From Halopelagius longus (GTDB lineage Archaea > Halobacteriota > Halobacteria > Halobacteriales > Haloferacaceae), in assembly GCF_900100875.1 (NCBI RefSeq), contig NZ_FNKQ01000004.1, positions 62,001-126,000 on the forward strand: 64,000 nt of DNA, read 5' to 3'. Position numbers and translations under genes: made by a program. How positions within the stretch are numbered: the first letter of the stretch is position 1; each line of letters starts with the position of its first letter. The notes below the pieces were generated by a model that ran no database searches, was not told the origin of the DNA, and saw only the letters and a program-made list of their open reading frames with translations. Shown here piece by piece: positions 2-59,656 of this stretch.

Positions 2-1324
2 GAAGACGCGGAGAGGGCAATCGAGGCCGCCGCCGCGGCGTCCGACGAGTGGGCCTCTACGCCCGGCCCGGAACGCGGCGCGATTCTCACGCAGGCCGCG
101 CGGTTGCTCGAAGACCGCACGGAGGAACTGACGGAGACGCTCACCCGCGAGGAGGGGAAGACGCCCGCGGAGGCCGAACCAGAGGTCCAACGCGCCGTCG
201 ACATCTTCTACTACTACGCCCAGAAGGCGGGGGACTACGGCGGCACCGTCAAGGCCGCAAGCGGCCGCGAGTCGAACCTCTACACGCAGAAAGAGCCGTT
301 AGGCGTCGCCGGCCTCATCACGCCGTGGAACTACCCCATCGCCATCCCGGCGTGGAAGATAGCGCCCGCCCTCGCGACGGGTAACGCGGTCGTCATCAAA
401 CCGGCGCGACTCGCCCCCGGCGTCGCCAAGGGTATCGTCGAGTGTCTCGACGAAGCGGGAATCCCCGACGGCGTCGTGAACCTCGTCATCGGGTCCGGGA
501 GCGACGTCGGCGGCGCAATCACGGACCACGACGCCGTGGACGCCGTCTCCTTCACCGGGAGTTCCAAGGTGGGACACCACGTGTACGACGCCGCGACGGA
601 CGACCAAAAGCGCGTCCAGTGCGAGATGGGCGGGAAGAACCCGACCATCGTCTCCGACACGGCGGACGTCGACGAGGCGGTCGATATCGTCGCCTCCGGG
701 GCGTTCGGCGTCACCGGGCAGGCGTGTACCGCCACCTCCCGCGCCATCGTCTACGACGACGTGTACGACGAGTTCGTCGACGGCGTCGTCGCCGCCGCCG
801 AGGACATCGACGTCGGCCCGGGCCTCGACGGCCACGATATGGGGCCGCAGGTGAGCGAGAGCGAACTCGAATCGACGCTGGAGTACGTCGAAATCGGACA
901 GGACGAAGGCGCGACCCTCGAAACCGGCGGCGAGGAGGTGGACGTCGAGGGCGCGGACGGCTACTTCGTCTCGCCCGCAGTCTTCTCCGACGTGGACGAG
1001 AACATGCGAATCGCGCAGGACGAGATATTCGGTCCCGTGCTCTCGGTCATCCGCGTCGAGAGTTACGAGGAGGCCGTCGAAGTGGCGAACGGCGTCGATT
1101 ACGGCCTCGCGGCGAGCGTCGTCACGGACGACCACTCCGAGGCGAACCGCTTCGTGGACGACATCGAAGCCGGCGTCGTCAAGATAAACGAGAAGACGAC
1201 GGGACTCGAACTGCACGTCCCCTTCGGCGGGATGAAGGACTCCTCCAGTAACACGTACCGCGAACAGGGCGAGGCCGCCCTCGACTTCTTCACGACGACG
1301 AAGACGGTCTACGACAACTACTGA
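2..1324 (+). CDS. Aldehyde dehydrogenase (partial, 5' end outside window)
   Basis: The reading frame is open from base 2, so the start lies upstream and about 440 codons are seen. It is an NAD(P)-dependent aldehyde dehydrogenase: the LITPWNYP segment (near 316-339), the general-base Glu in EMGGKNP (near 625), the catalytic Cys in TGQACTATSR (codon 725-727) and the EIFGPV motif (near 1023) are all present and in order. The surrounding sugar-acid dehydratase genes make 2-oxoglutarate semialdehyde dehydrogenase, the last step of non-phosphorylative pentose or hexarate breakdown, a reasonable guess, but the sequence alone does not fix the substrate. Succinate-semialdehyde or glyceraldehyde dehydrogenase are alternatives. 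The IclR gene follows on the same strand after 333 bp and has its own promoter. Confidence 0.93.
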   Translation, partial: EDAERAIEAAAAASDEWASTPGPERGAILTQAARLLEDRTEELTETLTREEGKTPAEAEPEVQRAVDIFYYYAQKAGDYGGTVKAASGRESNLYTQKEPLGVAGLITPWNYPIAIPAWKIAPALATGNAVVIKPARLAPGVAKGIVECLDEAGIPDGVVNLVIGSGSDVGGAITDHDAVDAVSFTGSSKVGHHVYDAATDDQKRVQCEMGGKNPTIVSDTADVDEAVDIVASGAFGVTGQACTATSRAIVYDDVYDEFVDGVVAAAEDIDVGPGLDGHDMGPQVSESELESTLEYVEIGQDEGATLETGGEEVDVEGADGYFVSPAVFSDVDENMRIAQDEIFGPVLSVIRVESYEEAVEVANGVDYGLAASVVTDDHSEANRFVDDIEAGVVKINEKTTGLELHVPFGGMKDSSSNTYREQGEAALDFFTTTKTVYDNY

Positions 1325-18620: not shown

Positions 18621-19796
18621 CTACTCGTAGACGTGGACGCTTCCGGTCTTGTTCTCCTCGATGTAGTCCCAGTCGTACTCGACGCCGAGTCCGGGGCCGT
18701 CCGGCACGGGCACCGTCCCGTCGTCGTCGATGGTGTCGAACATGTCGGAGTAGTCGCCCTTGTACACCGGCGGTTGGGTGTTCTGCGCCTCCGGGTGAAC
18801 GAGGGCGAGTTCGTAGTAGTTCGCGTTGCGCGTCGCCGCGATGCAGTGTCGTTGCGCCGGGCCGGGCGCGTGATACTCCACGTCGAGGCCGAACCCCTCC
18901 GCGACGCGGGAAATCTTCATCGCGCCCGTGATGCCGCCGTCGTACTCGGGGTCCGCGCGGACGAAGTCCGTCGCGCCGTTGGCGATGAAGTCCGTGTGCG
19001 GTTCGAGTCCGCGGACGTGTTCGGTCTGCAGGATGGGCGTCTCTATCATCTCGCCGAGTTTCTCGTGGGAGTGCTGGGAGATGCCGCCGTCGCGGTAGGG
19101 GTCCTCGTACCAGAGGAAGTCGTACTCGTCGCAGGCGCGTCCCACCTTCAACGCGTCCGCGAACGTCTCCAGTTCGCAGGCGGGGTCGCACATCAGGTCC
19201 ATCTCGTCGCCGACGCGTTCGCCGACGGCGCGAATCGTCTCGACTTCGCGTTTCACGTCTCTGGCCTCGTCGCTTCCGCCCCAGCCGTGAATCTTGAACC
19301 CCGGATAGCCCGCCTCCAGACACTCCTCGGCGAAGTCGGCGTACGCCTCCGGCGAGTCCAACCCGCCGTTGTCGTCGGCGTGGTAGGTGGAGGCGTACGC
19401 CGGGAGTCGCGTGCGGTAGGTGCCGAGGAGTTCGTGGATGGGCGCGTCGTAGTACTTCCCGGCGAAGTCCCACAGGGCGATGTCGATGGGACCGATTCCC
19501 ATGCGGTCGTACTTCCGCAACGCTCGCTTCACTTCGCTCCAGTGGCGTTCGCGTTCGAGGGGGTTCTTGCCGACGAGGTAGTCCGCGAACGTGTTTATCT
19601 GCGCCGCACCCGGGGAGTTCCCCCCGACGTACTCGCCCGTGATGCCCTCGTCGGTGTGGACCCGTATGGCGAACAGTTTCCGCTCCGTCGTCGTTCCCGG
19701 TTCGTACGAGAGGTTGAACCCGTTTCCGTCGGTGCCCACGTCCTCGAGTGGGTACCGGAATTCCGTGCTTTCTATCCGCGTGATGGTCGGTGGCAT
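18621..19796 (-). CDS. Mandelate racemase/muconate-lactonizing (enolase) superfamily dehydratase
   Basis: The 391-residue product has the enolase-superfamily plan: an N-terminal capping domain with the 20s and 50s loops and a barrel with metal ligands in DLMCDPACE, FLWYEDPYRDG and FVRADPEYDGGI. The second-strand Lys motif reads FKIHGWGG, and VEYHAPGPAQRHCIAATRN supplies a His near the end of the barrel. These features fit an acid-sugar dehydratase of the mandelate racemase subgroup, but I cannot assign the sugar. The ATG at 19796 is preferred; the upstream in-frame 21 residues have no family similarity. It runs convergent to the cyclase gene, 91 bp away, and is transcribed from its own promoter. 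Confidence 0.88.
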   Translation of the reverse strand: MPPTITRIESTEFRYPLEDVGTDGNGFNLSYEPGTTTERKLFAIRVHTDEGITGEYVGGNSPGAAQINTFADYLVGKNPLERERHWSEVKRALRKYDRMGIGPIDIALWDFAGKYYDAPIHELLGTYRTRLPAYASTYHADDNGGLDSPEAYADFAEECLEAGYPGFKIHGWGGSDEARDVKREVETIRAVGERVGDEMDLMCDPACELETFADALKVGRACDEYDFLWYEDPYRDGGISQHSHEKLGEMIETPILQTEHVRGLEPHTDFIANGATDFVRADPEYDGGITGAMKISRVAEGFGLDVEYHAPGPAQRHCIAATRNANYYELALVHPEAQNTQPPVYKGDYSDMFDTIDDDGTVPVPDGPGLGVEYDWDYIEENKTGSVHVYE

Positions 19797-25641: not shown

Positions 25642-26583
25642 TTGGCACAAGAAAACACACAGCACATCAGGCAGAAGTACGGCATGGAGGAGACCACGCT
25701 GATGGACCGTGCCCGGGAGAACTGGATAGGCTACCTGTTCATTCTCCCCACGTTCCTGATGTTCACGCTCCTGTTTTACTTCCCCATCGTGCGGGGCGTC
25801 TACATGACGTTCACCAACACGCGGTTGGGGGGAGTGGGGACGTTCGTGGGTCTCGACAACTACGTGTGGCTGTTGACGAACGACCTGTTCCACTTCGCGT
25901 TCGGGTGGACGCTCGTGTTCGTGTTCGGGACGACGTTCCTGCAGTTGTTCATCGGCCTGTTCGCGGCGCTCCTGTTGGCCGAACTCCGAAGCGGGTTGCG
26001 CGAGTGGACCAGCGCCGTCGTCATGTCCCCCTACTTCTCCGCGCCGTTGGCGGGGGGCGTCATCTGGCTGTGGTTCCTCAACAGCGACTTCGGGATGGTC
26101 CCGAGACTCGTCTCGGACCTCTTCGGCGTGACGACGCCGGCGTTCCTCGCGGAGGACCTGTGGCCGTACGTGTCGCTCATCGTCGCGCAGTCGTGGCACG
26201 ACTACGGGTACGCCGGAATCATCTACGCCGCGGCCATCGTCGGCATCCCGCGCGAACAGTACGAGGCGGCGGCGTTGGCCGGGGCGGGTCGCCTCCGGCG
26301 GTTCCGCGACGTGACCCTCCCGCACCTCGTGACGCCCACCATCGTCATCCTCGCGCTTCGGACGGCGTGGAACGTCGCGGAGTTCGCGCAACCGTTCGAG
26401 TTGACCGGCGGCGGCCCCGGGACGCGGACGATGCTGATGAGCATCCTCACGTACGAGACGGCCTACGTGAACCTGCAGTTCTCGCGGGCCTACACGCTCG
26501 GGATGGCCATGATCGTGATCTCGATGACGGCGGCCATCTTCTACGTGACCGTCATCCAAGACGAGGAGGAGATGTACGTCTGA
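25642..26583 (+). CDS. Sugar ABC transporter permease, MalF/UgpA type
   Basis: This 313-residue membrane protein has six visible hydrophobic segments beginning with WIGYLFILPTFLMFTLLFYF, and the EAA motif of inner-membrane permeases (EQYEAAALAGAGRLRRFRDV, near residue 205) that docks on the ATPase. The TTG at 25642 is taken as start because the residues after it are similar in kind to other haloarchaeal MalF N-termini; an ATG at 25684 would give 299 residues. A T-rich element (ACATTTTTACC, 25606-25616) lies about 30 bp before the TTG. It is separated from the next permease gene by two bases. Confidence 0.9.
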   Translation: MAQENTQHIRQKYGMEETTLMDRARENWIGYLFILPTFLMFTLLFYFPIVRGVYMTFTNTRLGGVGTFVGLDNYVWLLTNDLFHFAFGWTLVFVFGTTFLQLFIGLFAALLLAELRSGLREWTSAVVMSPYFSAPLAGGVIWLWFLNSDFGMVPRLVSDLFGVTTPAFLAEDLWPYVSLIVAQSWHDYGYAGIIYAAAIVGIPREQYEAAALAGAGRLRRFRDVTLPHLVTPTIVILALRTAWNVAEFAQPFELTGGGPGTRTMLMSILTYETAYVNLQFSRAYTLGMAMIVISMTAAIFYVTVIQDEEEMYV

Positions 26584-32483: not shown

Positions 32484-33269
32484 ATGACCGAAGACGGCGG
32501 ACTTGCGCGCATCGCCGAGGCGACGGAGCCGTCGATAGGGACGTGGGTCACCATCCCCGCGCCCGAGACGGCGGAACTTCTGGCCGGACTCGGCTACGAC
32601 TTCGTCTCGTTCGACCAGGAGCACACGCCGATGTCGTACGAGACGATGGGGAACCTGCTCCGGGCGGCGGACGCCGCCCCCGGGACGACGGAGTCGCTCG
32701 TGCGCGTCGCCGACGACGACCCGACGACGCTGAAACGGACGCTCGATTTGGACCCGACGGCGATTCTCGTCCCGATGGTCGAGACGGCCGAACAGGCCGA
32801 GGAGATAGTCGATGCGAGTCGCTACCCGCCGGAGGGGCGGCGCGGACTCGGCCTCACCCGGGCGTCGGGGTACGGTCGCTCGCTCTCAAACCACGTCGAG
32901 ACGGCCGAAGACGAACTCGCCCGGTTCGTCCAACTTGAGTCCGAACGCGCCGTCGAGAACGCCGACGCCATCGCGACGGTGGACGGCATCGACGGCCTGT
33001 TCGTCGGGCCGGTGGACCTCTCGCTGTCGATGGGTCGCCTCGGCGAGTGGGACGACGCGGAGTTCCTCGAACGCGTCGACAGCGCAATCGAGGCGGCCCG
33101 CGACGCCGACGCGGCGGTCGGAACGTTCGCCACCAGCGCCGACCAACGCGAGGCACGTCTCGACTGGGGCGTGGACTTCCTCGTCGCGGGCGTGGACGCG
33201 ACGCACCTCGCCGAGGGAGCGTCGGCGGCCCTCGACCACGCGGAGGGCCTCGTCCGACGGGAGGAGTAG
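32484..33269 (+). CDS. HpcH/HpaI-family aldolase (2-keto-3-deoxy acid type)
   Basis: The 261-residue product belongs to the HpcH/HpaI class II aldolase family. It shows WVTIPAPETAELLAGLGYDF, FDQEHTPMS (metal-binding Glu/Asp region), TAILVPMVETAEQAEEIV and FVGPVDLSLSMGRLGEW, which are typical of 2-keto-3-deoxy-L-rhamnonate and 2,4-dihydroxyheptenedioate aldolases. Cleavage yields pyruvate and an aldehyde. It could serve the keto-deoxy acids produced by the dehydratases in this island. The ATG at 32484 follows an AAGGTATAGGTGG stretch that might act as promoter and leader. Confidence 0.9.
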   Translation: MTEDGGLARIAEATEPSIGTWVTIPAPETAELLAGLGYDFVSFDQEHTPMSYETMGNLLRAADAAPGTTESLVRVADDDPTTLKRTLDLDPTAILVPMVETAEQAEEIVDASRYPPEGRRGLGLTRASGYGRSLSNHVETAEDELARFVQLESERAVENADAIATVDGIDGLFVGPVDLSLSMGRLGEWDDAEFLERVDSAIEAARDADAAVGTFATSADQREARLDWGVDFLVAGVDATHLAEGASAALDHAEGLVRREE

Positions 33270-33342
33270 GCGGCCGGGGAGTCTCCACCGCGGCGGGGCA
33301 ACGACGCGCCGCGGGGACAGGTCGGGGAGACGGGGGTGGGGG

Positions 33343-33450
33343 ACTCCACGCTTACGAGTGAAGGTGAGGAGACTCCACCCTTACGAGTGAACGTCCGAGG
33401 GACTCCACGCTTACAAGTGAACGACCGGAGAGTCCACGCTTACGAGTGAA
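33343..33450 (+). repeat. Four direct Orc-box-like repeats (core CCACGCTTACGAGTGAA)
   Basis: Four copies of a 20-base unit lie head to tail at 33343-33362, 33372-33391, 33402-33421 and 33431-33450, spaced 29-30 bp apart, close to three helical turns. The 17-base cores are CCACGCTTACGAGTGAA (twice), CCACCCTTACGAGTGAA and CCACGCTTACAAGTGAA. The same pattern, CCAC-N2-TT-R-C-R-AGTGAA, occurs around the orc1/cdc6 gene at 52.7-54.6 kb. A G-run (CGGGGGTGGGGG, 33331-33342) precedes the first copy. No gene occupies 33270-33510. Confidence 0.8.
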
Positions 33451-33510
33451 CGTCCGTGCGAGAGCGACCGCAGACGGCGGAAAAGCGAGAACGGGGACGG
33501 CCGGAGAGCG

Positions 33511-34416
33511 TCACTCGTACGCGGCGACGACGTCCTCCACGAGCGACGCGATTTCGTCGCGAGCGTCGGCGTCGAGTTCGACCAACGGGGGTCGAACCTC
33601 GTCGGTTTCGAGGACGCCGCGCGCGCGGAGTCCCGCCTTCGTCGCCGGGCCGAACCCGTGTTCGACGCACTGCTGGAACAGGGGAGCGACGTGTTCCTCG
33701 TGGATCCGCCGGGCCGCCTCGGCGTCGCCGTCGAACGCCGCGTCCGTCGCCGCCGCGAACGCCTCGGGAATCACGTTCGAGAGAGCGTTGACGCCGCCGT
33801 CGGACCCGAAGAGTAGTCCGGGGACGAAGTGGCTGTCGAACCCCTCGAACAGTTGGAACGACTCGGGCGTCCGCCGCAGGAGTTCCGAGAAGTAGTTGAA
33901 GTCGCCGCTCGAATCCTTCACGCCGAGGATTCGGTCGTGTTCCGCGAGTTCGACCGCGGAGTCGGCGGCGATGGGTCGGCCGACGCAGGCGGGGATGTTG
34001 TAGAGGTATATCGGAAGGGCGGCGTCGTCGGCGACGCGTCGCACGAACGCCTCGTCGCCCGCCGGGTCGTTCGACCCGTGGAAGTACGGGAGGGTGATGA
34101 GGGCGGCGTCCGCGCCGACGTCGGCCGCCGTCTCGATTTTATCGAGCGTTTCGGCGACGCTCGTCCCCGCGGTGCCGGCCATCACGGGCGCGCCGTCGGC
34201 GTACTCGACGGTCGTCTCCAGGACCGCCCGGTACTCTGCGGCGTCGAGGCTGGCGAACTCGCCCGTCGTCCCGCAGGGGACGAGGCCCGTCACGCCGCCG
34301 TCGAGGACGTGTTCGACCAGTTCGCCGAGAGCCTCGTGGTCCACGTCGCTACCCGCGAAGGGGGTGACGAGGGGGCAGTGCGCGCCTTCGAACCGTCGTG
34401 CGACGTCGTCCGTCAT
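33511..34416 (-). CDS. DapA-family lyase/aldolase (KDG aldolase or KdgD-like)
   Basis: This 301-residue protein is a dihydrodipicolinate synthase-family TIM barrel. It has LVPCGTTGEFASL near residue 43, the Tyr in PIYLYNIPA near 135 and the Schiff-base Lys in ILGVKDSSGDF near 163. Family members in sugar-acid pathways are 2-keto-3-deoxygluconate aldolase, 2-keto-3-deoxypentonate dehydratase and 5-keto-4-deoxyglucarate dehydratase. With the dehydratase operon and aldehyde dehydrogenase nearby, a KdgD-type step giving 2-oxoglutarate semialdehyde is possible, but aldolase activity is equally open. It is transcribed opposite to the HpcH aldolase and abuts the Orc-box-like array. Confidence 0.9.
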   Translation of the reverse strand: MTDDVARRFEGAHCPLVTPFAGSDVDHEALGELVEHVLDGGVTGLVPCGTTGEFASLDAAEYRAVLETTVEYADGAPVMAGTAGTSVAETLDKIETAADVGADAALITLPYFHGSNDPAGDEAFVRRVADDAALPIYLYNIPACVGRPIAADSAVELAEHDRILGVKDSSGDFNYFSELLRRTPESFQLFEGFDSHFVPGLLFGSDGGVNALSNVIPEAFAAATDAAFDGDAEAARRIHEEHVAPLFQQCVEHGFGPATKAGLRARGVLETDEVRPPLVELDADARDEIASLVEDVVAAYE

Positions 34417-34508
34417 CGTCCGTCACTCCCCCGCGGCGGAAGTTATACCTTGCCACGCCGGCAGTCCGCCGCCAACGTTTATGTTCCTCTGCGGGCGTGT
34501 GTCACACC

Positions 34509-34937
34509 ATGGCGATACTGGCAGCAGTCGACGGCGACGAGGAACCCGACCGCGCGGTCACCGTCGGAGAGGACCTCGCGGAGGCGTACGGCGACGAACT
34601 CGTCGTCGTCCACGTCCTCCCGCAGGAGGAGTTCGAGAAGCGAGACGAGGTCCGGCGGGGCGAACGCTACACCGTCGAGAACGGACAGCACGACGCGGAG
34701 GCGACGGCGCGGACGGTCGTGAAAGCCTCGACGGACAGGCCGGGACCGGTCGTGACGCGCGGACGCGTCGGCGACGTGGTGGAGGAACTGTTGAGCGAGG
34801 CCGAACGGGTGGACGCGAAGTACCTCGTCGTCGGCGGGCGCAAGCGGACGCCCGTCGGGAAGGCCCTGTTCGGGAGCACCACGCAGTCGGTGCTTCTGAG
34901 TTCGGACGTGCCCGTCGTCGCCGTGATGGACGAGTGA
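34509..34937 (+). CDS. Universal stress protein (UspA family)
   Basis: A single UspA domain of 142 residues: MAILAAVDGDEEPDRA opens the fold and the ATP-binding loop reads GGRKRTPVGKALFGSTTQSV near residue 113. The ATG at 34509 is used; ACGTTTATGTTCC at 34473-34485 is a TATA-like element about 27 bp upstream. Its physiological role cannot be read from the sequence; it stands alone between the lyase and the LarA-like gene. Confidence 0.92.
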   Translation: MAILAAVDGDEEPDRAVTVGEDLAEAYGDELVVVHVLPQEEFEKRDEVRRGERYTVENGQHDAEATARTVVKASTDRPGPVVTRGRVGDVVEELLSEAERVDAKYLVVGGRKRTPVGKALFGSTTQSVLLSSDVPVVAVMDE

Positions 34938-34997
34938 AGGCGAGGCGAGCGGACCGGCGCGGGATTCATTAGCACGGGGACGAAACTCGGAGGAGAG

Positions 34998-36323
34998 ATG
35001 GTCGAACTGGAGTTTCCGGGCCGGGAACGACTGGAGGCGGTCAACGACGCGTCGCTCTCGGACCTCCCGACGTTCGCGACGGTGCGGACGGTGACGGACC
35101 CGCCCGAGGTGGACGACGTTCCCGCGGCCACCGCCGCGGCGATAGCCGAGATACCGGCGCTGGACAAACTTTCGCGCGGGGCCGAGGTGGCAATAACCGC
35201 GGGCAGTCGGGGGATACACGACATGCCGACGGTCCTCTCGACGGCAATCGAGGAACTCCGAAACCGAGGGCTCGACCCGTTCGTCATGCCCGCGATGGGG
35301 AGTCACGGCGGCGCGACGGCGGAGGGACAGGTGGAGACGCTGGCGTCTCTCGGCATCACGGAGGCGTCGATGGACTGCGAGATTCGGTCGTCGATGGCCG
35401 TCGAGGCGGTGGCCGAGGACCCGAACGGCGAACCGGTGTACGCCGCCGAGGACGCACTCGACGCCGACGCGATTCTCTTGGCGAACCGCGTGAAACTCCA
35501 CACCGACTACCGCGGACCCGTCGAGTCGGGGCTCTGTAAGATGGCCGTCATCGGCCTCGGGAAGCACCGCGGCGCGGAGAACATGCACAACGCCGCCATC
35601 GCCCGCGGGTTCGACGAGGTGGTCCCCGAACGCGCGGAGTTGCTGTTCGAGGCGGACGACGTGCCCATCGTCGGCGGCATCGCCGTCGTGGAGAACGACC
35701 GGGAACGCGCCGCGCGCGTCGAGGGCGTCCCAGTCGAGGACCTGCCCGAACGCGAGGCGGAACTGCTCGAACGGTCGGCGGAGCTTTTCCCCTCCCTGCC
35801 CGTCGAGCAACTGGACTTCCTGATGGTTGACGAACTCGGCAAGAACGTCAGCGGAACGGGGATGGACACGAACGTACTCGGGCGGGTTCGGTTCCACAAC
35901 CAACCGGAGGTCCACACCCCGGAGATAACGCGCGTCTACGTCCGGTCGGTCACCGAGGAGTCCCACGGCAACGCCATCGGCATCGGCCTCGCGGACTTCG
36001 CGAGCAGGGACCTGCTGGAGTCGGTGGACTTCGAGGACATGTACGTCAACATCACGACCAGCGGCGAACCCGAACGCTCGAAGGTGCCGTTCGTCGTCCC
36101 CTGCGACGCGACGGCGTTCGTCCTCGCGGCGTCGATGACCGGGGTGCCGGACCTCTCGGAGATGCGCATCGGTCGCATCAGGAACACGCTCGAACCCGGG
36201 ACGATGCTGGCGTCGGAACCGGTTCTCGACGAACTTGAGGGGAGAGACGACGTGGAGATAGGCGAGCGCAGGCGGTTGACGTTCGACGACGACGGTCGGT
36301 TGACGACCGAAATCGAGGGGTGA
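34998..36323 (+). CDS. LarA-like protein (DUF2088), second paralog
   Basis: The 441-residue product is a paralog of the protein at 14568-15911, with the same anchors: AGSRGIHDMPTVLSTAIEEL, PAMGSHGGATAEGQ, NRVKLHTDYRGPVESGL and KMAVIGLGKHRGAENMH. The last contains the Lys and His candidates for tethering the nickel-pincer cofactor. A Shine-Dalgarno-like GGAGGAGAG lies directly before the ATG at 34998. It is convergent with the amidase gene with only two bases between stops. A racemase or epimerase for a 2-hydroxy or sugar acid is the best guess; the substrate is unknown. Confidence 0.83.
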   Translation: MVELEFPGRERLEAVNDASLSDLPTFATVRTVTDPPEVDDVPAATAAAIAEIPALDKLSRGAEVAITAGSRGIHDMPTVLSTAIEELRNRGLDPFVMPAMGSHGGATAEGQVETLASLGITEASMDCEIRSSMAVEAVAEDPNGEPVYAAEDALDADAILLANRVKLHTDYRGPVESGLCKMAVIGLGKHRGAENMHNAAIARGFDEVVPERAELLFEADDVPIVGGIAVVENDRERAARVEGVPVEDLPEREAELLERSAELFPSLPVEQLDFLMVDELGKNVSGTGMDTNVLGRVRFHNQPEVHTPEITRVYVRSVTEESHGNAIGIGLADFASRDLLESVDFEDMYVNITTSGEPERSKVPFVVPCDATAFVLAASMTGVPDLSEMRIGRIRNTLEPGTMLASEPVLDELEGRDDVEIGERRRLTFDDDGRLTTEIEG

Positions 36324-36325
36324 GG

Positions 36326-37876
36326 CTACGCGTCCCCGTCCCGCACCCGTTCGAACGTGCGCGCGATTCGGAGGAGTTCCGCGTCCTCGTAGGACCCGGC
36401 GACGAACTGGACGCCGACCGGGAGTGCGTCGCCGTCGTCGTCACCGTCGGGGACGGTCACCCCGGGGACGCCCGCGAGATCCATCGGGCGCGTGTTGTAC
36501 GCGAGTGGCACGTCGAGGCTCTCCCCGCCGTCCGCGTCGTCGTACTCGTGGGGTCGCCACGCGCCCACCTCCGGCGCGACGACGGGCATCGTCGGCGAGA
36601 CGAGGGCGTCACGGCCGTCGAGTGCGGCCTCGAACTCCGCCTTCAAGGTCGAACAGACGTTCCGCGCCCGGGTGTAGTGGCGGCCGTCGTACCGGTCCAG
36701 CAAGGCCGCGCCGACGAGGGCGCGTTCCTTCACCACGTCGCCGAACCCGACGCCCGCGGCGGACTGTCTCGCACTCGCCGCGTCGTACCGGGCGGTGTCG
36801 AACGGTCCCTGGCGTTCGAGGGGGAGGCCGTTCCGCCGGAGTGCGGCGGCGAACTCGACGTTCGTTATCGCGTTCCAGACGTAGACGGCGTCCTCGACGG
36901 TCGGCAGTCGGACCGATTCGACGGTCGCCCCCGCGGATTCGAGCGTCGCCACGGCGTCTCGGAAGCGTTCGCGCACCTCCTCGGAGACGTGGTCCGAGAG
37001 GAGTTCCTCGGGGACGCCGAGAGAGAGGTCGGCCGGGTCCGGCGCGTCGGTCAGTCCCGACGCGCACTCGCCGACCGGAATCTCCCTCGCTAGCGCCGAG
37101 GAGGGGTCCCGAGCGTCGTAGCCGCCGATCACGTCGAATCCGAGCGCCGCCGTCTCCACGTCCGGCGCGAGCGTTCCGACGTGGTCGAGCGTGTACGCCA
37201 GGTCCACGAACCCGTCGCGCGGAACCGCGCCCCACGAGGGTTTGAAGCCGACGACGCCGCAGAACGACGCCGGGATGCGGACCGACCCGCCGGTGTCGCT
37301 CCCGAGTGCGAGGTCCGCCGACCCCTCGGCGACGGCGGCGGCGCTTCCGGAGGAGGACCCGCCCGCGACTCGACTCCCGTCCGCCGGGTTGGTCACCGGC
37401 CCGAAGGCGCTGGTTTCGCTCGTCGGGCCGTAGGCGAGTTCGTCCATGTTGGTCTTGCCGACGATGCGCGCGGCCGCAGAGAGCAGTCGGTCGACGATAC
37501 TCGCGTTCCGTCGGGGGACGACGCCCTCGAAGACGCGCGACCCGCAGGTCATCGGGACGCCCGCGACGGCGAGGTTGTCCTTCACGGCGACATCGACGCC
37601 GGAGAGAGGGCCGTCGGCGTCACCGTCGCCGCTCTCCATCGAGAACGCCGTGATGTAGGCGTTGTGGGGGTCCTCGTCCTCGCCGGGCGCGCGAACGTCG
37701 CGCACCGCGACCGACCCCGAGGCGTCCGTCGGCGCGAGTTCGTCGAGGGCGGCGTACCCGCCGAGTTCGTCGCTCACGCCGCGAGCGAAGCGTTCGGCGT
37801 CCGCCGCAGAGAGGTCGAACCCCATCGACTCGCCCGCCTCCGCAATCCACGCCGCCGAGACGGAAGAGAGGGGCAT
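36326..37876 (-). CDS. Amidase (amidase signature family)
   Basis: This 516-residue enzyme has the Ser-cisSer-Lys triad of amidase signature proteins: Lys in VAVKDNLAVAG (near residue 84), the GGSSSGSAAAV motif (near 165) and the nucleophile Ser in GSDTGGSVRIPA (near 187). GKTNMDELAYGPTSE between them is typical of GatA-like amidases. Length is right for a stand-alone amidase. The ATG at 37876 is preferred over a GTG at 37882. It could hydrolyse an amide substrate for carbon or nitrogen supply; a formamidase gene lies 5 kb away. The GatA role in tRNA amidation is unlikely as no gatB/gatC-like gene is near. Confidence 0.88.
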   Translation of the reverse strand: MPLSSVSAAWIAEAGESMGFDLSAADAERFARGVSDELGGYAALDELAPTDASGSVAVRDVRAPGEDEDPHNAYITAFSMESGDGDADGPLSGVDVAVKDNLAVAGVPMTCGSRVFEGVVPRRNASIVDRLLSAAARIVGKTNMDELAYGPTSETSAFGPVTNPADGSRVAGGSSSGSAAAVAEGSADLALGSDTGGSVRIPASFCGVVGFKPSWGAVPRDGFVDLAYTLDHVGTLAPDVETAALGFDVIGGYDARDPSSALAREIPVGECASGLTDAPDPADLSLGVPEELLSDHVSEEVRERFRDAVATLESAGATVESVRLPTVEDAVYVWNAITNVEFAAALRRNGLPLERQGPFDTARYDAASARQSAAGVGFGDVVKERALVGAALLDRYDGRHYTRARNVCSTLKAEFEAALDGRDALVSPTMPVVAPEVGAWRPHEYDDADGGESLDVPLAYNTRPMDLAGVPGVTVPDGDDDGDALPVGVQFVAGSYEDAELLRIARTFERVRDGDA

Positions 37877-38305
37877 CGGCACTACCCGTCCCCCCGATAG
37901 CCGCCGGTCCGTCCGTCGTCGAGTCTCGTCATGCGTCCCCGAGTCACGGGAGAGGCCCGCATAATCGTTCGGGTGACGGGAGCGTCAGGCGGTCCGAACG
38001 GCGGGACTGCTAGCGGACGGAGGCACCACCGTCTGGCGATGAGAGAAATACGAGATAGCAAAACTGGCAAAGACAGGAGAAGAGTTTGGATACCAAAGGC
38101 GGAAAAGATAGTTTTGAGCCTTTGAGCGAGGAGAGGCGGCCACCGGGAGGAGGCTCTCCCTAGTTCTTTGGTACCAAACCACGTTCGAATATCGTATGCG
38201 CGCGACCGTTTCCGACGCGTCGGAGAAGGGAGGACGGGAGAGACGCCGCACCGAACCGAGCGAGGACCTCCGTCCTCGCGCCGCCGAAGGGGGGTTGGAG
38301 TGACG
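37877..38305. promoter_or_regulatory. Intergenic region with two TTTGG/CCAAA inverted repeats
   Basis: This 429-bp region separates divergent genes. Two related inverted repeats stand out: TTTGGATACCAAA at 38085-38097 and the perfect palindrome TTTGGTACCAAA at 38167-38178, with centres about 82 bp (eight helical turns) apart. Such a pair would suit a repressor binding two sites on one face of the DNA. The segment 38040-38125 is markedly AT-richer than the rest. I see no gene. Confidence 0.55.
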
Positions 38306-52719: not shown

Positions 52720-53179
52720 CCACTATTACACGTGAAGCGCGCTCGGTCGCCGGCAGGGCGTCGGACACCACCGATTCAAGTGAAATGCGCGGCGGCACAC
52801 ACACCCCACCGTTGCAAGTGATCGAGGCCGAGGCGGTGGGGAGGGGGGTGTTCAGTTGCCTCTCGAAGCGGTGATCGAAGGTCAATCGACCCGGCGAACC
52901 GGGACACAGACACACCACTTTTGCAAGTGAAGGTTCGAACGAGGGGGTTGATCGGTTCGCGACCGGAGTTGAGAACTGCCGTCTCCCTCCCGGACAGACA
53001 CCACTGTTGCGAGTGAAAACAGACTAGTCAGGCCCAATCACGAGGAAATAACGGAATACCCCATCCAAATAATATCAGCGCTTCAGATGAAACAGTGGTG
53101 TGTTGTTCTTCTAGAGTACCCTCTCACACTAGCTTCACTTGCAACAGTGGAGTGTGTGTGTCTTCACTTGCATCAGATG
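52720..53179. other. Replication-origin-like region: five direct and three inverted Orc boxes around an AT-rich spacer
   Basis: Direct 17-base copies lie at 52720-52736, 52768-52784, 52806-52822, 52915-52931 and 53001-53017; inverted copies at 53082-53098, 53134-53150 and 53163-53179. The best are CCACTTTTGCAAGTGAA, CCACTGTTGCGAGTGAA and (inverted) CCACTGTTGCAAGTGAA. Many are preceded by GACACA. Between the two orientations is an AT-richer stretch (53024-53080, including CCAAATAATATC) suited to unwinding. The orc1/cdc6 gene follows at once. This is the layout of archaeal origins with Orc boxes facing each other around a duplex-unwinding element. Confidence 0.85.
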
Positions 53180-53231
53180 AATCAGTTGTAACCGTGGTTT
53201 TAAGTGGGTACACTGTAAGGTGCGAAGCACG

Positions 53232-54458
53232 ATGCGCCGCTTCGAGCGGAAACAGAACATCTTCCACAACAAGGACGCCTTGGGGGAGTCCTACCGACCG
53301 GAGCGGATTCAGGAACGGGACGAGGAGATCGAGGAGTACATGGACGCGCTCCAACCCGTCGTCGACGGGTGGGAACCGAACAACGTCTTCCTCTACGGCA
53401 ACACCGGCGTCGGAAAGACGGCGGTGACCGAGTACCTGCTCAAAGTACTGCGAGAGGACGTCGAACAGTACGACGACGTGGACCTGCACGTCCTCTCTCT
53501 GAACTGCAAGACGCTCAACTCCTCCTATCAGGTGGCCATCGAGTTGGTCAACGAACTCCGTCCGGCGGGCGGCGAAATCAGTTCGACCGGATACCCCCAA
53601 CAGACCGTCTTCAAGAAGCTCTACAAGGAACTCGACGAGTTGGGCGGCACGATACTCGTCGTCCTCGACGAGATTGACTCCATCGGAGAGCGGGACGAAC
53701 TGCTGTACGAACTCCCTCGCGCCCGGTCGAACGGGAAACTGGAGCACGCGAAAGTCGGTATCGTCGGCATCTCGAACGACTTCAAGTTCAGAGACAGACT
53801 CGACCCCCGCGCGCAGGACACCCTCTGCGAACGCGAACTCCACTTCCCGCCGTACGACGCGCCGGAGTTGCAGAACATCCTCGAATCCCGTGCTAGCGTG
53901 GCACTCTCGGAGGGTGCCTACGAGGAGGGCGCGTTGAACCTGTGTGCGGCGCTGGCGGCGAGAGACAGCGGAAGTGCGAGACAGGCGCTCGACTTGCTCC
54001 GGTTAGCCGGCGAGTACGCGGAGAACCGCGACGACGAGTGCATCACCCGTACCCACGTCGAAACCGCCCGGGAGAAACTGGAGCAGGAACGCGTCGTCGA
54101 GGGGATGCGCGAACTCACCGTGAACGGCCACTACGCCCTGTTGGCCGTCGTCTCGAAGGCCGCCCAGCGAGAGACGCCCTGCCGGATGCGCGACGTGTAC
54201 GACGAGTACGTGAGCCTCTGTGAGAAAGCCGACATCGAACCCCTCGCACAGCGGTCGATTCACAACCACCTCTCGGACCTGCGGATGCTCGGCATCCTCT
54301 CCGCCGAGGAGAACCGCACGGGCTCTCGGGGGAACTACTACAGTTACGCGCTCGACGTTCCGTTCTCCAGCGCGATGACCGCGCTTACCGACGTCCTCTC
54401 GCTGGAATCCGTCCTCGAAGACATCCGCACGACCGCTCGACGGTACGACATCGTCTGA
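53232..54458 (+). CDS. cdc6: Orc1/Cdc6 family replication initiator
   Basis: This 408-residue protein is an archaeal Orc1/Cdc6 AAA+ initiator. Walker A is GNTGVGKT (residues 56-63) and Walker B VVLDEIDSI (near 143); sensor 1 lies in GIVGISNDFKF and the sensor-2 region near SGSARQALDLLRLA. A winged-helix domain follows after about residue 290. It should bind the repeats flanking it and load the MCM helicase. The ATG at 53232 is chosen; TTTTAAG at 53198-53204 is a promoter element about 28 bp upstream, and a GTG at 53220 is less likely. Haloarchaea carry many such genes, often each with its own origin. Confidence 0.96.
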   Translation: MRRFERKQNIFHNKDALGESYRPERIQERDEEIEEYMDALQPVVDGWEPNNVFLYGNTGVGKTAVTEYLLKVLREDVEQYDDVDLHVLSLNCKTLNSSYQVAIELVNELRPAGGEISSTGYPQQTVFKKLYKELDELGGTILVVLDEIDSIGERDELLYELPRARSNGKLEHAKVGIVGISNDFKFRDRLDPRAQDTLCERELHFPPYDAPELQNILESRASVALSEGAYEEGALNLCAALAARDSGSARQALDLLRLAGEYAENRDDECITRTHVETAREKLEQERVVEGMRELTVNGHYALLAVVSKAAQRETPCRMRDVYDEYVSLCEKADIEPLAQRSIHNHLSDLRMLGILSAEENRTGSRGNYYSYALDVPFSSAMTALTDVLSLESVLEDIRTTARRYDIV

Positions 54459-54510: not shown

Positions 54511-54560
54511 CCACTCTTTCAAGTGAAGGGGTCTCGGCTCGAATTCACTTGCGGAAGTGG
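54511..54560. repeat. Facing pair of Orc-box-like repeats downstream of cdc6
   Basis: A direct copy (CCACTCTTTCAAGTGAA, 54511-54527) and an inverted copy (TTCACTTGCGGAAGTGG, 54544-54560) of the origin repeat face each other 16 bp apart just after the cdc6 stop. They share the same 17-base pattern as the copies upstream, so the initiator gene is enclosed by its presumed binding sites on both sides. Confidence 0.8.
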
Positions 54561-58954: not shown

Positions 58955-59656
58955 TTACTCGACGTCTTCGAGTCTCTCGCGAACGCTCTCGGCGTCGAGT
59001 TCGTCTATCTCGTCGAGTCCGAGAGAGACGACGAGAGGGTAGAAGTGGCGGTTCTTCTCGAAACTCTCGTCGAACTCGTACTCGTAGTCGGCTTTGAGCA
59101 TCGCGTACGCCCTGTCGAGGTTCCGCCGCACGTCGTGCGGGAGGTACATGTACGTCGGCTTCTGCTCGTCTTTGACGGACATCGCCGGCGACTCCTCTCT
59201 CGCCGACGCGTCTTCCTCTTCTCCGCTCTCGCCGTCCGTCGCGTCCCTCTCCGCGTCCGGAGCGTCGGACTCCGTTTTCGCGCCGTCTTCCTCGTCCGTC
59301 GCTACGGTCTCGTCGGTCTCTCCGGTCCCACCGCTTCCGTCTCCACTCTCGGCGTTTTCGGTCTCTTCCGTCTCTGTCGTCTCTCCTCTCTCTTCCGTCT
59401 CGTTCTTCTCTCCCGTCTCGCCCGTCTCTTCCGCCTCTCCTCTCTCTGCTGTCTCTTCCGTCTTTGTCGGTTTTGCTGTCTCTGCCGAACTCGTCGTCTC
59501 CGCCGAATCCGCCGTCTCGGCCTCCGTTCGCTCCTCGGATTCGTTCTCGGCGTCGGGTTCCTCTCCGTCGTCTTCGTCCGCGGCGAAACCGTGTGCGCGG
59601 TCGCGGGCGCGTTGGCGACGGCGTCGGAGTCGGTCGGCGCGGTCACCGTCGCTCAT
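58955..59656 (-). CDS. ParA partner protein with Glu/Thr-rich region (putative segregation adaptor)
   Basis: The 233-residue product has three parts: a basic N-terminus (RADRLRRRRQRARDRAHGF), a long low-complexity acidic tract (about residues 28-160) rich in Glu, Thr, Gly and Ala with repeated TEETGE/TAE-like units, and a conserved-looking C-terminus containing KPTYMYLPHDVRRNLDRAYA and RHFYPLVVSLGLDEID. Its ATG overlaps the parA stop (ATGA), so they form one operon. In haloarchaeal plasmids ParA is often followed by such a partner; a centromere-binding or adaptor role is inferred from that arrangement only. No ParB nuclease motif is seen. Confidence 0.7.
   Translation of the reverse strand: MSDGDRADRLRRRRQRARDRAHGFAADEDDGEEPDAENESEERTEAETADSAETTSSAETAKPTKTEETAERGEAEETGETGEKNETEERGETTETEETENAESGDGSGGTGETDETVATDEEDGAKTESDAPDAERDATDGESGEEEDASAREESPAMSVKDEQKPTYMYLPHDVRRNLDRAYAMLKADYEYEFDESFEKNRHFYPLVVSLGLDEIDELDAESVRERLEDVE

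Follow-up and report, generated by a model that had tools for sequence, protein, structure and literature searches.

A candidate Orc1/Cdc6 box array, remote from the origin and apparently derived from a gene tail, in the haloarchaeon Halopelagius longus

The window analyzed here, a 64,000-nucleotide stretch of the Halopelagius longus genome, carries four short repeats in a 240-bp gap (33270-33510) between two convergent genes (Table 1). A sequence-only reading of the window had described four direct copies, 29 to 30 bp apart, in a gene-free gap, and this description was borne out: all four 17-mers are exact matches to the 17-base pattern, lie on the + strand, and are spaced at 29, 30, and 29 bp. 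When up to two mismatches were allowed, the pattern occurred 13 times in the window against 0.18 expected, a count reached in 0 of 100 shuffles. The array also had the top tandem repeat score in the window (150 to 185 with Tandem Repeats Finder). A long pyrimidine-rich tandem repeat with a 9/27-bp period and about 12 copies, TTCCGTCTC, lies elsewhere in the window, at 59357-59463. The array had further been reported to have a single orientation and neither an AT-rich partner nor an adjoining initiator gene, and here too we agree, as local GC content is 0.56 to 0.79, no AT-rich stretch was found beside the array, and the window holds a single orc1/cdc6 homologue, which is listed in Table 1 and is no less than 19 kb from the array.

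Table 1. Coordinates of the array, its neighbors, the origin region, and comparison loci (window positions unless a genome and contig are given)
Feature	Position	Strand	Sequence	Remarks
Surviving enolase-superfamily paralogue	18624..19796	-		Same SVHVYE-stop tail
HpcH/HpaI-type aldolase gene	32484..33269	+		Converges on array
Stretch without colinear counterpart in sister genome G001	33240..33426			187 bp; holds copies 1-3; G001 has a 1.2-kb gene there
Array copy 1	33346..33362	+	CCACGCTTACGAGTGAA	25-position box score 22.6
Array copy 2	33375..33391	+	CCACCCTTACGAGTGAA	25-position box score 28.4
Array copy 3	33405..33421	+	CCACGCTTACAAGTGAA	25-position box score 26.4
Array copy 4	33434..33450	+	CCACGCTTACGAGTGAA	Score 21.7; orthologous to 3' end (VHVYE-stop) of enolase-superfamily gene in G001
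Dihydrodipicolinate-synthase-family (dapA-type) gene	33511..34416	-		Converges on array
Origin box cluster upstream of orc1/cdc6	52720..53197	+ and -		+ sites 52720, 52768, 52806, 52915, 53001; - sites 53098, 53150, 53197
orc1/cdc6 initiator gene, presumed box reader	53232..54458	+		TIGR02928, 454 bits, above cut-off
Inverted box pair just downstream of orc1/cdc6	54511..54560			
Haloferax remote array, examples	G028:C1:21615-21710; G072:C18:586706-586780			

The orc1/cdc6 gene lies 19.9 kb from the array, and the box cluster upstream of it flanks an AT-rich stretch at about 53030-53110. The earlier count of ten pattern copies around this gene, between 52.7 and 54.6 kb, was reproduced by weight matrix, which placed ten sites above 11 bits there. 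This box is missing beside the genome's other Orc paralogues, the nearest sequence, on contig C7, being CCACTATTGCCAGTAAA. A scan of the whole 3.87-Mb genome for the 17-base pattern with at most one mismatch, which the sequence-only reading had proposed, returned 11 matches: the 4 array copies, 6 at the origin, and 1 elsewhere on the same contig.

The weight matrix was built from 71 boxes at 12 orthologous cdc6 loci, all in other genomes (proteins 72 to 96% identical), and has the consensus ACACACCACTGTT(A/G)CAAGTGAA. With this matrix, the array copies score 21.7 to 28.4 bits against 24 to 43 for the training boxes, two copies falling slightly below the lowest training site, and the window's own origin boxes score mostly 27 to 39 bits. 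The best window sequence outside the origin and the array reached -0.7 bits, and no score of 20 or more was found in 40 Mb of simulated order-3 Markov background. Because the copies stand so far above both the window and the simulated background, the likeness of the array to Orc boxes, as judged by score, is far beyond chance per site, and in sequence the array matches the boxes at orthologous origins. The 5' ACACA extension of the origin boxes is absent from the array, which has GGACT/GAGT instead. Few origin boxes have a G at position 5 (6/71) or at position 11 (7/71), whereas the array has the former and often the latter as well.

The strong scored sites remote from the origin, namely, the array and the sites at C4:186308 (18.8 bits) and C4:226210 (19.3 bits), are all on the origin's contig, C4, which at 306 kb makes up 8% of the genome. 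These counts come from pattern searches followed by scoring rather than from a full matrix scan, and one weak-pattern match on contig C6 was left unscored. A further candidate, C4:27030, was dropped, as it scored only 6.2. The site at C4:186308, CCACTCCTGCAAGTGAA, is origin-like and has a counterpart at C5:147076 in G001, the only other genome of the genus, where 20/20 bases are identical in an island between unalignable flanks; a gene is shared beyond an insertion on one side.

Comparison with G001 points to the source of the array. The window and G001 are colinear on both sides of the array, with about 85% identity around it, and the array as such is absent from G001. The repeat unit is present there in a single copy, CCACGTTTACGAGTGAACGTCCGGGAG, adjoining the orthologous dapA-type gene. 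This counterpart is the coding end (TGSVHVYE-stop) of an intact enolase-superfamily dehydratase gene located between the HpcH and dapA-type genes, and an SVHVYE-stop-type tail is conserved in many relatives of this enolase-superfamily (mandelate-racemase-like) gene. The colinear alignment at 33427-37974 begins at copy 4, which is orthologous in both position and sequence to the 3' end of the enolase-superfamily gene. The tail is by descent a part of the gene, and the alignment is therefore most simply read as loss of the gene from the window together with amplification of its tail. In two Haloferax genomes, the HpcH and dapA-type genes are adjacent, with no enolase-superfamily gene between them, so gain of the gene in the genus ancestor followed by loss from the window would also be possible; the homology of copy 4 would be unchanged. 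In addition to the surviving paralogue in the window, a second one lies at C4:11761-12933 of the same genome. Between SDR and HpcH genes, G001 holds one more enolase-type gene, which is absent from that place in the window.

The G001 gene tail scores 15.1 bits, with 22 of 32 on the 17-base core, compared with about 4 for the usual tail of related genes. Because the G001 tail already scores this high (15.1; core 22.0), one gene-tail coincidence could have started the array, and since all four copies derive from one tail, their likeness to a box counts as one coincidence and not four. Ten substitutions separate the copies; two of these are in the 17-base core, and both run toward the box consensus (G5 to C and G11 to A), raising the score. 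Simulations placing ten changes at random gave P = 0.0006 for so high a summed score and P = 0.02 for no more than two changes in the core. The test rests on ten changes, and because the core boundary was chosen after the data had been seen, these values are only suggestive of selection on the core.

We searched 392 genomes of the order for similar arrangements. Exact array pairs outside the window were found only among cdc6-adjacent boxes, a BLAST search of the array against plasmids gave no match, and a match to the unit in G033 was attributed to chance, as it lies at the end of an unrelated gene. A relaxed search for same-strand pairs gave matches in 24 genomes, and outside the window's genome and Haloferax these were boxes near cdc6 except in G200 and G395, whose matches contained no scoring box. 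Three more strong boxes, in both orientations, were seen at G002:C1:458025-458303, about 5 to 6 kb from the cdc6 origin. Among 80 viral contigs with the relaxed pair pattern, a single site exceeded 17 bits and no array was present. Isolated remote sites occur on two complete plasmids with the same Orc family, pNG500 (102494; 23.5 bits) and a plasmid of Haladaptatus halobius (86339; 20.8 bits), and neither carries a remote array.

In Haloferax, by pair search and single-box search, a remote array was detected in 12/12 genomes. The genus was identified from two genomes whose hits coincide one by one with those of H. denitrificans ATCC 35960 and H. sulfurifontis. The Haloferax array has three sites on one strand, with a spacing of 24 bp in three genomes, and occupies a convergent gap flanked by radical-SAM and TRAM genes. 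Its distance to the orthologous origin is 112 to 140 kb in the six genomes that have both on one contig, and no orc1/cdc6 homologue was found in the 13 to 16 kb around the array in two genomes. In a comparison of 11 genomes, the sites hardly vary, in contrast to the remainder of the gap; a single base distinguishes the second unit, CCACGCTTGCGAGTGAA, from that of the window. A site at G028:C22:220270 was dropped because it is inside an open reading frame. Since the two arrays occupy different loci, they arose separately; the Haloferax array is a precedent for the window array and not its homologue.

How, then, should the array be read? It might be a neutral fossil, formed when replication slippage multiplied the tail of a dying gene, such that the VHVYE-stop codons plus an A resemble an Orc box by luck and nothing binds there. 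The descent from a gene tail is clear, the ancestral tail, as seen in G001, is plain coding sequence that already has most of the core score, and the array was seen in no other genome among the 392 of the order, all of which would suit this account; but the substitutions spare the core and raise the score, the array shares a contig with the matching origin, and Haloferax conserves remote arrays of near-identical units. We regard the fossil as a serious possibility that is nonetheless somewhat improbable. Real Orc binding is favored by the core-sparing, score-raising changes, the remote sites on the cdc6 contig, and the conserved Haloferax array, and it is the independent, conserved array in Haloferax that leads us to prefer titration to a fossil.

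Binding by some other protein with an Orc-like box, such as a transcription factor or nucleoid protein, appears unlikely. The convergent gaps offer no promoter to regulate, the sites score in or close to the range of origin boxes, and the conserved solitary site at C4:186308 is origin-like, against which can be set the G5/G11 bases (CCACGCTT[AG]CGAGTGAA) that the remote sites of both genera share, unlike most origin boxes. A remnant or dormant second origin, which several boxes in an intergenic gap might bring to mind, is very improbable. Haloarchaeal origins combine inverted boxes, an AT-rich element, and an adjoining orc1/cdc6 gene; the array is GC-rich and of one orientation and has no cdc6 within 19 kb. 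A second-origin remnant was therefore rejected, on anatomy and because the array goes back to a metabolic gene's tail. The same descent rules out a captured origin fragment. Among the three interpretations offered by the sequence-only reading, a satellite Orc-binding array thus fared best, in the light of the independent matrix and the Haloferax array, and the second-origin remnant found no support.

We therefore favor, with a confidence that we would call even, a remote candidate Orc1/Cdc6 array that arose from an amplified gene tail and most likely titrates the initiator rather than serving as an origin. In the proposed sequence of events, an enolase-superfamily gene for a sugar-acid dehydratase would have ended in ~30 bp that by chance resembled an Orc box, and this tail would have been amplified in tandem to four copies as the rest of the gene was lost. 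The four box-like sites lie outside the origin on the contig that carries cdc6 and thus, to the extent that the assembly can tell, share its replicon. As putative sites for the Orc1/Cdc6 encoded 19.9 kb away, they would hold initiator away from the origin, most likely by titration, and so dampen initiation there, acting like oriC2D or the RctB sites described below. We infer Orc binding, titration, and selection for it from these comparisons of sequence. More broadly, and with slightly less than even confidence, we propose that remote initiator-binding arrays linked to the replicon exist in haloarchaea as an archaeal counterpart of datA and sit in convergent gaps, tens to more than 100 kb from the origin; one would be Haloferax-wide, and that of the window would be newly born from the tail of a deleted gene. 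What limits initiation per origin in multi-origin archaea is largely an open question, and the earlier proposal of titration concerned boxes clustered next to their own cdc6 gene (PMC3936714). With a remote array present in every Haloferax genome checked, titration at a distance would become testable in a genus amenable to genetics, and the window array would show the birth of such an element by slippage on a box-like gene tail.

No remote box array was described in the literature searched, a scope that leaves out most subscription journals, and several known systems resemble the array in part. In Haloarcula hispanica, oriC2D is a box cluster that adjoins cdc6E and can be deleted only together with the origin; it is inactive as an origin and reduces plasmid concentration in step with box number, and titration of Cdc6E was proposed (PMC3936714). 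Like the window array as read here, it is a haloarchaeal group of initiator boxes that does not act as an origin, and its lowering of initiation was shown genetically. Its 11 boxes are directly downstream of cdc6E, whereas the window array has 4 boxes in one orientation, 19.9 kb away and derived from a gene tail. The direct boxes of Haloarcula marismortui pNG500 are likewise set at constant steps and evidently arose by tandem duplication; unlike the window array, they are adjacent to cdc6 and have ACACA-like extensions. Five of these direct boxes, at exact 36-bp steps, lie at 25883-26061, directly downstream of the orthologous cdc6. The Haloferax array shares with the window array the box family, same-strand tandem sites, a convergent intergenic gap, and a great distance from the orthologous cdc6, and differs in its 24-bp spacing, radical-SAM/TRAM neighbors, genus-wide conservation, and independent origin. 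On Vibrio cholerae chromosome II, RctB sites outside the origin titrate the initiator (PMC3937223). Both these extra RctB sites and datA of Escherichia coli involve bacterial initiators and boxes with demonstrated binding, whereas binding to the window array is predicted; as initiator-binding clusters that lie outside the origin on the same replicon and lower initiation by titration, they resemble the role proposed here.
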